This document shows positions 13,697 to 18,700 of a stretch of DNA of 64,000 nt, in pieces. The position numbers were made by a program, and so were the translations under genes. The DNA is from Aquificaceae bacterium. GTDB lineage: Bacteria > Aquificota > Aquificia > Aquificales > Aquificaceae. Under the pieces are notes generated by a model. The model did no database searches and was not told where the DNA came from. It was given only the letters and a program-made list of their open reading frames with translations. Positions within the stretch are counted from its first letter, which is position 1; every line of letters starts with the position of its first letter. The DNA lies in contig JBBFKQ010000004.1 in assembly GCA_037481935.1 (NCBI GenBank), positions 62,001 to 126,000 on the forward strand. Reading direction: 5' to 3'.

Positions 13697-13984
13697 ATGC
13701 CCAACACGAAGCAGGCTGAAAAGCGTATGAGAAGAGACGCAAAGAGGAGAATAAGAAACAGGTATCATCTCTCAAAGATGAAAACCTACATAAGAAAGTT
13801 CAGAAGAATGGTGGAGGCCGGTCAGTTGGAGGAAGCTAAAGAGTTTTTGCCTGAAGTGGTAAGTATCATCTACCACACGGCGTCCAAAGGTGTTATACAC
13901 AAAAACGAGGCAGCAAGGAGAGTTTCAAGGGTTAGCCTTCTTCTCAACAAGGCCCTTCAGAAGGTTCAGGGGCAGGTAAGCTAA
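13697..13984 (+). CDS. rpsT: 30S ribosomal protein bS20
   Basis: Small-subunit protein bS20 (95 aa), rich in Lys/Arg, starting MPNTKQAEKRMRRDAKRRIRNR as in the family and ending with a SRVSLLLNKALQKV helix. A strong SD (AAGGAGG) lies 6-7 nt before the ATG, in contrast to the leaderless genes around it. The last 60 nt overlap the convergent murJ gene on the other strand. Confidence 0.96.
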   Translation: MPNTKQAEKRMRRDAKRRIRNRYHLSKMKTYIRKFRRMVEAGQLEEAKEFLPEVVSIIYHTASKGVIHKNEAARRVSRVSLLLNKALQKVQGQVS

Positions 13985-15415
13985 AGGCTCTTTAAGCAGC
14001 AGTAAAAGCGCCCAGTATAGTAGAATAGCAAGCGGTATAGCATAGAGTGTTTCATAGGGAGAAGGGTTTATAACAATAAGGAAAAGAGACATAAGGATAG
14101 TTGCAAGAAGGGTCTTTAAAAGTGTATTGGCATAATCCCGTGTCTCCAGACTTTTGTCTTTCCATAGGTAAAGAAGAAGGCTAAACCCAACGAGAGATGA
14201 GCTGGCGGTTCCAAGGGCAAGACCTACAACACCGAGCTTAAAGAGGAAGGCAAATATAAAAGCGAGAAGGCCTTCCGCAGTAATCGCAAAGAGTGAAGAC
14301 AGGACTGGAGTTCTGGTATCTCCCTTTGCAAAGAAAACACTTGACAGCACCTTTTGAAGAGAAAAGAACAGAAGACCAAGCGAATACACTGCAAGCACCT
14401 TACTGGCTATGGCTATATCTTCCTCTGAGAACTTGCCCCTTCCGTAGAGCAGGGCTATTATCTGACGGGAAAGCACAAGTAGACCACCAGTAGCTGGAAT
14501 AGAAAGCAGGGTTATAAACCTGAAGGCAAGGGTTATGTTCTTTCTGGGGTCATGCCCGCCGGATAGAATAGAAAGAAGAGAGTTTGCCATACCTACCGAG
14601 AGAGCACCCAGCGGAAGTTGAAATATTCTGTTGGCAAAGTAAAGGTAGGATATGGCACCGAGGGTCAGAAAAGAGGCAAGAAAGGTGTCTATGAAAAAAG
14701 AGAGCTGGGCAACGCCAAAGCCCATAAGGGCAGGCAGAAGCCTTTTCAGAAGAAGGTGCAGGTCTGCATCTCTCTGAAAGGTCAGTCTGGGAATGAGTCC
14801 CTGAGAGATGGCTGATGGGATGTGAAAAAGTAGCTGAGCAAAACCTCCCACAACCACTCCTATAACAAGAGCCATATAACCAAGGCTGTGGGCAGTAAGG
14901 GCTATACACACAGCCATCACTATGTTAAAAACGGCCTGAGCAAAGGCAGGAACAAAAAAGACCCCCCTTGTATTGAGCACGGCCATGAAAAAGGCGCTCA
15001 GCCCTACAAAAAAGAGATAGCTAAACAGAAACCTTGCCATAAACACAGCCAGCTCAAAGTAGCTCTTTTCCACCACACCGGGGGCTATAAGCCTTATAAC
15101 CCACTCTGCAAAGATTATGCCGGTAAGGGTCACCAGCAGGTTAAAGAGCGTGTAGTAAGTAAAGACAGAGTTGAGAAGAGGTCTCTCAGTGCCCTCTTTT
15201 AATCTCTGGGCAAAGATGGGAACAAAGGCGGCGTTAAAGCCGCCCTCTCCAAAGAGCCTTCTGAAGGTGTTGGGAAGCCTGAAGGCTACAAAGAAGGCGT
15301 CGGTAATCTGAGAAACCCCAAAGTAGTAGGCTATCATGGCATCCCTTACATATCCAAGAATTCTACTCAGAAGGGTGGCTGTGGAGAATGAAACAGAGTG
15401 TCTAAGGAGAGCCAT
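13925..15415 (-). CDS. murJ: Lipid II flippase MurJ
   Basis: Flips the peptidoglycan precursor lipid II across the inner membrane. 496 aa with about 14 membrane helices; the N-terminal STATLLSRILGYVRDAMIAYYFG and DAFFVAFRLPNTFRRLFGEGGFNAAFVPIFAQ segments are hallmark MurJ/MviN. The start is set at MALLRHSV (15415), since upstream sequence belongs to the preceding gene (14-nt overlap). The 3' end overlaps rpsT by 60 nt antisense. It is probably transcribed from upstream, through the three island genes or an internal promoter. Confidence 0.94.
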   Translation of the reverse strand: MALLRHSVSFSTATLLSRILGYVRDAMIAYYFGVSQITDAFFVAFRLPNTFRRLFGEGGFNAAFVPIFAQRLKEGTERPLLNSVFTYYTLFNLLVTLTGIIFAEWVIRLIAPGVVEKSYFELAVFMARFLFSYLFFVGLSAFFMAVLNTRGVFFVPAFAQAVFNIVMAVCIALTAHSLGYMALVIGVVVGGFAQLLFHIPSAISQGLIPRLTFQRDADLHLLLKRLLPALMGFGVAQLSFFIDTFLASFLTLGAISYLYFANRIFQLPLGALSVGMANSLLSILSGGHDPRKNITLAFRFITLLSIPATGGLLVLSRQIIALLYGRGKFSEEDIAIASKVLAVYSLGLLFFSLQKVLSSVFFAKGDTRTPVLSSLFAITAEGLLAFIFAFLFKLGVVGLALGTASSSLVGFSLLLYLWKDKSLETRDYANTLLKTLLATILMSLFLIVINPSPYETLYAIPLAILLYWALLLLLKEPLAYLPLNLLKGLVEKKANP

Positions 15416-15893
15416 CTGCAAAGTTCCAGACTTTACTGGGTTCGTAGCCTTCGCAGGGGAAAAAGGTTCTGTGAGCGGGATTGTCTCGTGAAGGGGTAGC
15501 ATAAACCTCACCGTAATTTTCTAAATTTGCACACTCTAAAATTGTAGGATTTGCATTATTAAACTTTTCCTGAATGGTTTTCAGCAACTCCTCTAAATCT
15601 ACAAAGACAGATAGACCGCACATCTTACATGCTAACTCCTCTATTACTCGCCCACTCCTATCAATGGCTCGCTTCCTGAAAAGTTTAGGTTTGCTTACAA
15701 AATAGGGGTATGCATCCCACCAATCCCTCTCAAATCTATAGTAAACTCTACCCTTTTTCTCTTTACTGCTGTTTAGTATCTTCTTCGGGCAGATATCCTT
15801 TATAGTATCCACAACTCTGTGAATATCCGGTTCTATTTTACCCTCTCTTTTCAAATCTTCCAATTGCTTTATATACTCATACCTGGCGCACAT
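15402..15893 (-). CDS. Unknown protein of the tRNA-Leu island (163 aa)
   Basis: Not recognised. It is a charged, soluble protein with a central C-K-M-C pair (about residues 90-93) and further cysteines at both ends (MCARYEY at the start, FFPCEGYEP near the end), so metal binding is possible. Aromatic-rich FERDWWDAYPYF precedes the pair. Third gene of a minus-strand unit with a SecB-like and a DUF6575-like protein; base composition is more AT-rich than the neighbouring housekeeping genes. Its stop overlaps the murJ start by 14 nt. Confidence 0.6.
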   Translation of the reverse strand: MCARYEYIKQLEDLKREGKIEPDIHRVVDTIKDICPKKILNSSKEKKGRVYYRFERDWWDAYPYFVSKPKLFRKRAIDRSGRVIEELACKMCGLSVFVDLEELLKTIQEKFNNANPTILECANLENYGEVYATPSRDNPAHRTFFPCEGYEPSKVWNFADGSP

Positions 15894-15901
15894 ATTTTGT
15901 A

Positions 15902-16333
15902 TTACTCTATTATTTTGTGAGGTAAGGGTGGAAGTATAAGTCCTGCCTCTCTCTTTAGCATATCCACAACATGTCTGATGTATGGGTATACAAGGAGCAA
16001 TCCAGAGTTTTTTGCATAAGCATTCAAGACATTCTTATGTGGTATTTCTCCTTCCTTGACTTTCAATGTGAGTAAATAGGAAATTCTAATGTCTAATCTT
16101 TTCCCAGATACAGAAAATGTCTCCGCATATGTATATGCAAACTCAACCCGTGATTCAGATCTAGTAAATGTCCTTACAGAGAGGTCTACATCTACATTTA
16201 CTTCAACTTTTTCATCATCTTCGGAGGGCACATCTGACAAAAACTCCAACTTGCGAAGCCTTACAGATTCTATTTCAATACGCTCCAGAAAGTTTCTAAG
16301 CGACTCTTTTAACTTCTCTTTACTACGCCGCAT
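15902..16333 (-). CDS. SecB-like chaperone protein
   Basis: A 143-aa protein resembling SecB and SecB-like chaperones. It has an N-terminal helix, a central beta region (KVEVNVDVDLSVRTF, ESRVEFAYTYAETFSV), and the C-terminal signature YPYIRHVVDMLKREAGLILPPLP, which matches the SecB end pattern (FPYAR...G-x-x-x-L-P-P). Orthodox SecB binds unfolded precursors; SecB-like versions next to other genes can be chaperones for antitoxins (TAC modules) or phage-related proteins. No HigB/HigA-like gene is adjacent. It overlaps the upstream gene by 11 nt, so the pair is co-translated. Similarity was judged by eye and is moderate. Confidence 0.6.
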   Translation of the reverse strand: MRRSKEKLKESLRNFLERIEIESVRLRKLEFLSDVPSEDDEKVEVNVDVDLSVRTFTRSESRVEFAYTYAETFSVSGKRLDIRISYLLTLKVKEGEIPHKNVLNAYAKNSGLLLVYPYIRHVVDMLKREAGLILPPLPHKIIE

Positions 16334-16886
16334 ACAACAATTCTCGCTCAGTCAGATAGATTGGAGTGTAGTCGTATTCCGTTACGATCTTGGGTTCGGA
16401 TTTTATTGAATCAGTATAAGCACGCCTGAAGGTGTAAAACTCATCAAGTTCAATAAGTTTCCTGAAATTCCTGTCAAACATTTTCACAAATTTCTTGTAT
16501 ACTCTAAGAGCCTCTTCTGAGCTGTCAGGTCTTGGTAGGTATATATCCCCAGGGGGCACTTTATATCCTCCATTCCCCTTCTCCAAAACCCTCACAGTTT
16601 CGTATGTGTCATACCTGCGCTCACACAGCCAGAGAACACCCCGATTAAACAATTCCTTTAGTGGTTTAACACCCCTCAAATATTCTGCAGTCAATTCAGG
16701 CTCAAGCTCAAGGAGAAACCAGTGTTCGCCCTCTTCCAGACTTTTCACCCACAGCAAGTAAAGACTTCCGTCGGTGGATACTAGCTCTACGGGTGTATCT
16801 ATGACGCTCAGAGGCACGAAGTGCCCTGCGAATTTACCCTCTATGTTTATTCTTTCCTTCTCCCAGATATATCTCACCTTCTGCAC
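16323..16886 (-). CDS. DUF6575-like protein, first gene of the tRNA-Leu island
   Basis: A 187-aa soluble protein. The segment from about residue 20 to 120 (HFVPLSVIDTPVELVS, DGSLYLLWVK, HWFLLELEPELTAEYL, PLKELFNRGVLWLCE) follows the pattern I know from DUF6575 proteins, which have no established function. The C-terminal third is a helical RRAYTDSIKSEPKIV region. The start is GTG (16886) with an SD-like AAGAGGTG. It begins 15 bp beyond the 3' end of tRNA-Leu and may be co-transcribed with it. Confidence 0.5.
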   Translation of the reverse strand: MQKVRYIWEKERINIEGKFAGHFVPLSVIDTPVELVSTDGSLYLLWVKSLEEGEHWFLLELEPELTAEYLRGVKPLKELFNRGVLWLCERRYDTYETVRVLEKGNGGYKVPPGDIYLPRPDSSEEALRVYKKFVKMFDRNFRKLIELDEFYTFRRAYTDSIKSEPKIVTEYDYTPIYLTERELLYAA

Positions 16887-16900
16887 CTCTTTTTTCCCAA

Positions 16901-16984
16901 TGCCGGAGGCGGGAGTCGAACCCGCACGCCCTCACGGGCACTGCCCCCTCAAGACAGCGCGTCTGCCAGTTCCGCCACTCCGGC
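16901..16984 (-). tRNA. tRNA-Leu (GAG)
   Basis: On the minus strand, acceptor GCCGGAG pairs with CTCCGGC, discriminator A. It has a class II long variable arm (TGCCCGTGAGGGC), an anticodon stem CTGTC/GGCAG around loop TTGAGGG giving GAG, and a T loop GTTCGAC. CCA is not encoded. A TATAAT (17001-16996) ends 11 nt before the mature 5' end. Its 3' end faces the SecB-like island, the usual side for integration. Confidence 0.96.
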
Positions 16985-17599: not shown

Positions 17600-18485
17600 C
17601 GGAAAGTCGGAGGTCTGCTGTCTCCTTGCTCAGAGGCTTGGTGGGGAAATAATCAGCGCAGACTCCATGTGCGTATACAGGCATATGGATATAGGGACTG
17701 CAAAGCCTTTGGAGTGTATGGAAAAGGTCCCACATCATCTTGTGGATGTGGTAGAACCCGGCCAGGTCTTCGATGCCAAACTCTTTGAGGAGCTGTCTCT
17801 GAAGGCCCTGCAGGACATAAGAGCCAGGGGTAAAGTTCCCATAGTATGCGGTGGCACATACCTCTATCTGCAGGCACTCCTGCATGGCATTGAGGATACG
17901 CCACCACCTGACTGGAAGCTGAGAGGCAGACTGTATGAAATAGCTGAGAAAAAAGGTAGTGAGCATCTACACAGAAAGCTAAGAGCTGCCGACCCCCTCT
18001 ATGCCAACAAAATATCACCGAGGGATACAAGAAGAATAGTGAGGGCTCTTGAGGTTTTCATAAACTCTGGCAGACCCTTCTCCTCCTTCCATCACTGGGA
18101 CAGACCAAGGCTGGATTTTGCCGGCTTTTATCTGAGCTGGAGCTGGGAGAGCCTCTCCAGAAGGTTAGAAGAAAGGGCATCAAGAATGCTACAGAAGGGG
18201 CTTGTGGAAGAGATAAAAAAGCTCCTTAAGATGGGTTTTGAAAGCTTTCTCACTTCTCCGCAGGCTATAGGATACAAGGAGTTTATACCCTGTGTGAAGG
18301 GCGAAAAGCCCCTTCAGGAGTGTCTTTTACACATGATAAAAAATACAAAAGAATACGCAAAAAGACAGACAAGATGGTTTAGAAGGCAGGGCTGGAAGAA
18401 GGTAAACATGGATGTGCTCGGGATTGAAGGGGCTGTGGGGGAGATTCTGAGCAACTTGACTTTCTTCGTTAAGGCTATAAAATGA
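17568..18485 (+). CDS. miaA: tRNA dimethylallyltransferase MiaA
   Basis: Adds a dimethylallyl group to A37 of tRNAs reading UNN codons. P-loop GGPTGSGKS at residues 6-14, the substrate segment SADSMCVYRHMDIGTAKP, HHLVDVVEP and the C-terminal QAIGYKEF and RQTRWFRRQ motifs are present. 305 aa is normal. I chose the ATG at 17568; a TTG two codons upstream is the alternative. It starts inside the thiE 3' end, so translation is probably coupled. Confidence 0.94.
   Translation: MLIVIGGPTGSGKSEVCCLLAQRLGGEIISADSMCVYRHMDIGTAKPLECMEKVPHHLVDVVEPGQVFDAKLFEELSLKALQDIRARGKVPIVCGGTYLYLQALLHGIEDTPPPDWKLRGRLYEIAEKKGSEHLHRKLRAADPLYANKISPRDTRRIVRALEVFINSGRPFSSFHHWDRPRLDFAGFYLSWSWESLSRRLEERASRMLQKGLVEEIKKLLKMGFESFLTSPQAIGYKEFIPCVKGEKPLQECLLHMIKNTKEYAKRQTRWFRRQGWKKVNMDVLGIEGAVGEILSNLTFFVKAIK
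18456..18483 (+). promoter_or_regulatory. Promoter inside miaA 3' end for the small membrane protein
   Basis: TTGACT (18456-18461), a 16-bp spacer and TAAAAT (18478-18483), which ends exactly 7 nt before the ATG at 18491. This fixes the start of the downstream gene and predicts a leaderless mRNA. Confidence 0.6.
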
Positions 18486-18490
18486 TGCCT

Positions 18491-18700
18491 ATGGAACCAC
18501 TTCAGCTCATGGCGATGATAGCCAGTGTAGTTGCAGTTGTGGGCTTTGCCACCACACTCATAAATAAACGCATAGACGAACTGAGCAAAAGGGTTGATGA
18601 CAGCAACAGGCGAATAGATGAACTTAAAGAGGATATAAGAGAACTCAGGAAGGATATGAAAGAAGTGCTCAGAATACTCTATAGAGAAGAGCCTGCCTAG
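18491..18700 (+). CDS. Small membrane-anchored coiled-coil protein (family member A)
   Basis: A 69-aa protein with one N-terminal membrane helix (about residues 5-24), the short linker INKRIDEL, and then a charged heptad coiled coil to the end (RRIDELKEDIRELRKDMKEVLRILYR). It closely resembles the protein at 34891 (FNKRIEDL ... IRDLKQEIREIRQLLYR), so they are paralogues. The start at 18491 rather than 18482 or 18485 follows from the -10 position. Function unknown; such proteins may oligomerise at the membrane. Confidence 0.65.
   Translation: MEPLQLMAMIASVVAVVGFATTLINKRIDELSKRVDDSNRRIDELKEDIRELRKDMKEVLRILYREEPA

Follow-up and report, generated by a model that had tools for sequence, protein, structure and literature searches.

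Three small genes, here termed A, B and C, lie on the minus strand between tRNA-Leu(GAG) and murJ in a 64,000-nucleotide stretch (the window) of contig JBBFKQ010000004.1, part of a 1.69 Mb genome of the phylum Aquificota. We propose that they form a chaperone-addicted variant, of the toxin-antitoxin-chaperone (TAC) type, of PD-T4-10, an anti-T4 toxin-antitoxin system of E. coli (Vassallo et al. 2022, PMC9519451). In the searches made, the variant was found only in Aquificota, and we give the proposal slightly better than an even chance of being correct. The three are genuine genes. Their open reading frames (ORFs) are intact in the window and are not chance ORFs, because homologues of all three occur in the same order in other genomes. 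A preliminary description of the locus had suggested a chaperone-effector unit, and the comparisons below support this idea in the form of a TAC-like logic.

The relationship of A and C to PD-T4-10 was established through intermediates. Scanning the window proteins A, B and C directly against Pfam, NCBIfam and PHROGs gave nothing useful, and the window C protein itself has no direct match to the PADLOC profile PD-T4-10_A. The profile of the Aquificota C proteins detected a homologue in a genome of another phylum (G173, E 1.7e-13), where the adjacent gene encodes a true DUF6575 protein (Pfam E 2.9e-29). This homologue matches PD-T4-10_A at 0.0025 and clade members do so at 1.9e-5 and 4.3e-5. 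When 289 relatives of G173 were searched with the Pfam DUF6575 model, a C homologue was located directly upstream in nearly every fetched locus. Conversely, comparison of the coordinates from both searches showed that each complete C in these relatives adjoins a DUF6575 gene. Such pairs are also present in Oscillatoria (cyanobacteria), on Rahnella and Pantoea plasmids and in E. coli prophages. In PADLOC, the small proteins from E. coli and Rahnella are matched by PD-T4-10_A, and the DUF6575 proteins from E. coli by PD-T4-10_B. These sequence comparisons assign A and C to the PD-T4-10 family. The cassette shares with PD-T4-10 a small protein with conserved Arg, Ser and His directly beside a DUF6575 protein, overlapping genes and a mobile or defence context. 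PD-T4-10 differs in that it has no chaperone, its gene order is C-A and its DUF6575 protein is ~400-430 aa with a long C-terminal region and no AA end. The literature that was searched mentioned DUF6575 and PD-T4-10 each only in the discovery paper (PMC9519451). As a separate observation, the DUF6575 proteins at L148-L152, L157, L159, L162 and L163 carry a HicB-like domain (recognized by eye) at their N-terminus and are not accompanied by C, and several of these loci lie beside type I restriction specificity-like genes.

The sequence support for A as a DUF6575-like protein, as it had been described before, is weak, and the support from its partner gene is strong. Aligned with hhalign, the Aquificota A proteins match DUF6575 with a probability of 78.6 and an E-value of 1.7e-5, compared with 0.2 for the reversed control. 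PD-T4-10_B matches the A homologue of G096 (E 2.2e-4) only over profile positions 40-147 of 353. The A homologues are ~170-206 aa in length versus ~390-430 aa for the long DUF6575 proteins of the PD-T4-10 type; the N-terminal domain alone is matched and the long C-terminal region of PD-T4-10B is absent. Structural matching of A yielded nothing convincing with regard to its fold.

The C-terminal end of A resembles that of the antitoxins in chaperone-addicted systems. In the AlphaFold2 model, which excludes the last three residues, the predicted local distance difference test score (pLDDT) falls below 50 for residues 153-184. All A proteins end with [AV]A (8/8 genomes), as compared to 2/345 ORFs of the genome and 0/22 DUF6575 proteins without SecB; the AA end itself is shared by 0/345 other ORFs. 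The base rates for the genome were taken from 384 kb of it (345 ORFs). In independently fetched SecB loci, the gene before SecB ends with [AV]A in 6/8 cases and is mostly of a known antitoxin type (HigA, HicB or MqsA; by eye). A occupies this same antitoxin slot before the SecB-like gene. The CmdA antitoxin of the CmdTAC system ends with LAA, a ClpXP signal, and is cleared by ClpP (PMC11618068). Two further TAC-like loci were noticed in Aquificota, a HigB-HigA-like(...IAA)-SecB locus (L174, G007) and a HicB-like(...YAA)-SecB locus (L171, G070).

B is, by profile comparison, a SecB-like chaperone nearest to those of TAC systems, in agreement with the preliminary description. Its sole PADLOC match is CmdC (PD-T4-9_C, E 0.0073) and the best PDB chain for its profile is Rv1957, the SecB-like chaperone of an M. 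tuberculosis TAC system (E 0.068). When aligned by hhalign with a set of SecB and TAC chaperones including E. coli SecB, B gave a probability of 79.3 and an E-value of 1.5e-5, with probabilities of 0.1-0.2 for unrelated and reversed controls. It had been considered that B might simply be the only canonical SecB of its genome; the Pfam SecB model detected no SecB in the entire window genome (0 matches). In the TAC systems HigBA-, HicAB- and MqsRA-SecB (PMC5105189), too, the SecB-like chaperone immediately follows a protein that carries a C-terminal extension, although their toxin-antitoxin pairs are from other families. The cassette has the SecB-like gene and, on the preceding protein, a predicted disordered C-terminal extension (ChAD-like) with a ClpXP-type end.

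The predicted structure of C suggests an ADP-ribosyltransferase (ART)-like fold. Its AlphaFold2 model has a pLDDT of 91. A Foldseek search with this model returned matches rich in ART toxins, with a best E-value of 0.13. Structural re-alignment ranked KptA/Tpt1 with a Z score of 6.5 and a root-mean-square deviation of 2.3 over 82 residues; RES toxins and the cholera, LT and pertussis A subunits were also listed, and nearly all 50 rows were ARTs or ART-like toxins. In the alignment of 29 family members, R53 is kept in 28/29, S95 in 29/29 and H141 in 29/29. Judging from the aligned ranges, Arg53 would correspond to the catalytic Arg of the cholera, LT and pertussis A subunits, so that the NAD-binding Arg and Ser of the R-S-E type have counterparts in C (R53 and S95). 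The points of resemblance of C to the ART superfamily would be the predicted fold, an Arg in the first strand and a Ser in the second motif. It contains the C-x-x-C pair noted earlier (CKMC), and Aquificota members have an extra conserved Cys. A zinc site as a trait of the C family was considered and rejected, as CxxC is lost in many members outside Aquificota. The earlier statement that the two partners resemble no known toxin or antitoxin does not hold, given the relationship of the pair to PD-T4-10 and the ART-like predicted fold of C.

Several observations weigh against our interpretation. For C, no Foldseek match is significant alone (E >= 0.13), no re-alignment Z score exceeds 6.5, which is less than 8, and sequence searches gave no link of C to any ART. 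The catalytic glutamate of ARTs is missing from C, and the invariant His141 is near its place. B falls below the Pfam SecB model. With regard to the roles of the partners, the sole experiment on PD-T4-10 found that E. coli PD-T4-10B, the DUF6575 protein, is toxic and that PD-T4-10A, the C homologue, neutralizes it (PMC9519451). The pattern in the G173 clade fits this experiment, as every intact long DUF6575 seen is accompanied by C or fused to a HicB-like domain, and a truncated DUF6575 with an intact C is common. On balance, the ART-like fold of C (residues ~45-163) is likely, but unproven.

The combination of an ART-like C with a SecB-like B raises the possibility that the cassette is a CmdTAC system (PD-T4-9; PMC11618068), with C as a divergent CmdT, A as CmdA and B as CmdC. 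CmdTAC consists of an ART-fold protein, an unstable partner ending with AA and a SecB-like chaperone, which is consistent with the PADLOC match of B to CmdC, the predicted fold of C and the LAA end of CmdA. However, PADLOC gives neither C nor A a match to CmdT or CmdA, and the two proteins group with PD-T4-10 instead; the toxin and antitoxin of CmdTAC are not detectably related to them. In place of the diphtheria-type H-Y-[EDQ] triad (H-Y-E/D/Q) of CmdT, C carries a conserved Arg, and the gene order in the window differs from the T-A-C of CmdTAC. This possibility is already disfavoured and we consider it very improbable.

In the arrangement that we propose, the gene order would be antitoxin (A), chaperone (B) and toxin (C). 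A would bind and silence C through its DUF6575-like domain, while B would hold the disordered tail of A and shield its AA end from ClpXP. If B were diverted, for instance by a protein of a phage, A would be degraded, and the freed C, an ART-like enzyme, would halt the cell. Complex formation, degradation of A, ADP-ribosylation, the trigger, the target and the identity of the toxic partner are all inferred. By the syntax of TAC systems, we lean modestly towards C as the toxin and A as the antitoxin. This assignment would be compatible with the PD-T4-10 experiment if the toxicity of PD-T4-10B resided in its long C-terminal region, which is absent from A. Since short DUF6575 domains stand alone in many genomes, it is unlikely that the domain itself is toxic. 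The idea that DUF6575 is always an antitoxin was weakened by the toxicity of PD-T4-10B and the partner pattern in the G173 clade. Bordes et al. reported that chaperone addiction can be transferred to ordinary toxin-antitoxin pairs in the laboratory (PMC5105189), and the cassette looks like a natural case in which it was moved onto a further family.

Alternatively, the same family and TAC-like wiring could operate with the E. coli roles, in which A is toxic, C is its antitoxin, perhaps as an A-modifying enzyme of type VII, and B keeps A soluble. The direct experiment on PD-T4-10 argues for this alternative, as does the partner pattern of long and truncated DUF6575 proteins described above, and the conserved Arg, Ser and His of C would suit an enzyme in either role. 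On the other hand, A is without the ~250-residue C-terminal region of the toxic protein, short DUF6575 domains stand alone in many genomes, and it is A rather than C that carries the degron-like end and occupies the antitoxin slot before SecB. Moreover, A is retained in the copies whose B and C have decayed, although in the absence of B an unstable A may do no harm. We regard the E. coli roles for the cassette as rather unlikely. More tentative still, and in our view doubtful as a whole, is the proposal that the small PD-T4-10-family protein represents an unrecognised ADP-ribosyltransferase family with an Arg-Ser-His site whose role switched between lineages. In the E. coli form with two genes it would act as an antitoxin, perhaps by enzymatic means; in the Aquificota form it would be the toxin, and the partner there would have lost its toxic region and become chaperone-addicted.

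The distribution of the cassette was examined by searching 136 Aquificota genomes for A, B and C. It is conserved in eight, with the three genes together and in order in G000, G037, G007, G018 and G096. The order in G071 is C-A-B, the classical order of toxin, antitoxin and chaperone, with B cut by the contig end. Only C is visible in G044 because the contig stops at this point. A deletion common to G042 and G045 has joined B to C and taken away the beginning of C, and G042 carries further damage; in these decayed copies B and C are disrupted and A is intact (dN/dS 0.31 between the two). Such decay, seen in two sister genomes at the site used in the window, would be expected if the genes were degenerate passengers with no present function in the window genome. 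Yet all ORFs in the window are intact and C retains every family-invariant residue there, which makes such a passenger status improbable.

In the genus of the window genome, the unit is between tRNA-Leu and murJ in 5/14 genomes (G000, G037, G042, G045 and G044; two decayed and one cut by a contig end). The site is empty in 7/14 (G036, G038, G039, G040, G043, G046 and G048), with murJ following the tRNA after ~8-12 bp; G041 and G047, the other two of the 14, are assigned to neither group. The cassette thus interrupts a run of housekeeping genes, as had been suspected, and is not conserved at one place in all relatives. A tree of MurJ places G037 together with G036 and G038, which are 96-97% identical to it and both lack the cassette. 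The C protein of G000 is 48% identical to that of G044 and 40% to that of G037, and the ranking is reversed for MurJ with 78% and 85%, respectively. The presence of carriers and empty sites in near-identical sisters, together with these identities, indicates that the cassette was gained or lost recently and that its history differs from those of its neighbour genes.

The preliminary description had further suggested integration directed by the tRNA, and this was rejected. No duplicated tRNA 3' end was found at the far junction (longest shared word 6 bp), the insert between tRNA and murJ holds three ORFs only and no integrase, and the cassettes of G007, G018, G096 and G071 do not adjoin tRNAs. 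No relatives were found in viral contigs, nor any of the G173 DUF6575 protein in phages or of the Aquificota A or C in plasmids; a scan of genome contigs with B returned Aquificota copies only. At the empty site of G048 (L053:173-256), ARAGORN reads the tRNA-Leu before murJ with the anticodon CAA instead of GAG; a swap caused by collapsed repeats in a draft genome may account for this.

In G018, G007 and G071 the cassette lies in Hma defence loci. In G018 a split HmaB methylase gene flanks it on both sides and HmaC follows downstream; a DarTG-like fusion and HEC-02-like genes belong to the same locus. The cassette precedes the second half of HmaB and HmaC in G007 and adjoins HmaC in G071. A divergent gene for a MacroD-type macrodomain protein, of an ADP-ribose hydrolase family, is beside the cassette in G096 (L038:566-1132) and could reverse ADP-ribosylation by C. 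From its family and these neighbours, we infer that the cassette may function in phage defence. It is also conceivable that the cassette is not a toxin-antitoxin system, but a holdase with two clients that serves envelope biogenesis with murJ. C overlaps or directly abuts murJ in the window, G037 and G044, and co-transcription from the tRNA promoter is likely. This is quite improbable in our view, as half of the genus is without the cassette and has murJ straight after the tRNA, other genomes carry it beside Hma or macrodomain genes, and, beyond the phylum, its homologues form an anti-phage pair carried by prophages and plasmids.

HmaB itself is recurrently split at one place (profile ~550/570), as observed at L037:564-8079 (G018), L036 (G007), L209:313-1907 (G048) and L207 (G056), and it is intact in G039, G050 and G071. 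Several of these gaps hold small toxin-antitoxin or defence genes, including the A-B-C cassette, the DarTG-like fusion and the HEC-02-like genes; the gap in G048 holds a HepT-like gene (by eye). The tldD-miaA interval of G037 holds a type II restriction-modification pair (L033:1130-3060), ~1.5 kb from the cassette site, and this area may represent a small hot spot of defence genes. In the window, a short coiled-coil-like ORF of 72 aa (18482-18700) lies in that interval.

The layout of the locus is summarized in Table 1. The three genes overlap or almost do so, as had been described: the GTG start codon of A is 14 bp past the 3' end of the tRNA, the B gene overlaps that of A, and the end of C overlaps the start of murJ by 14 nt. 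The cassette is also AT-richer than its neighbours, as previously stated, with a G+C content of 0.408 against 0.481 +/- 0.025 for the 345 ORFs of the same genome (z -2.85; lower in 1.2% of ORFs).

Table 1. Features of the cassette and its borders, in window coordinates.
Feature	Position	Strand	Description
tRNA-Leu(GAG)	16901..16984	-	ARAGORN; upstream edge of the cassette
Gene A, 187 aa, GTG start	16323..16886	-	DUF6575-like N-terminal domain and disordered tail, end ...LLYAA
Tail codons of A, residues 153-187	16326..16430	-	Predicted disordered; AA end, putative ClpXP-type degron
Gene B, 143 aa	15902..16333	-	SecB-like chaperone, TAC type
Gene C, 163 aa	15402..15893	-	ART-like predicted fold; homologue of PD-T4-10A
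Arg53 codon of C	15735..15737	-	Putative position of the NAD-binding Arg of R-S-E ADP-ribosyltransferases, via aligned ranges
Ser95 codon of C, G-x-S strand	15609..15611	-	Invariant, 29/29
His141 codon of C	15471..15473	-	Invariant, 29/29
murJ	13925..15415	-	Pfam MurJ E 8.1e-114; downstream edge, ATG at 15415

If our interpretation is correct, the cassette would link two E. coli phage-defence systems that have been treated as unrelated, PD-T4-10 and the SecB-guarded TAC systems, and would show that one more toxin-antitoxin family, in deep-branching thermophiles, has acquired chaperone addiction. It also poses the question as to which partner in the PD-T4-10 family is the toxin, and the thermophilic cassette proteins should be suitable for structural work. 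No function had been predicted for either protein of PD-T4-10, and the cassette offers ADP-ribosylation as a candidate activity for that system.

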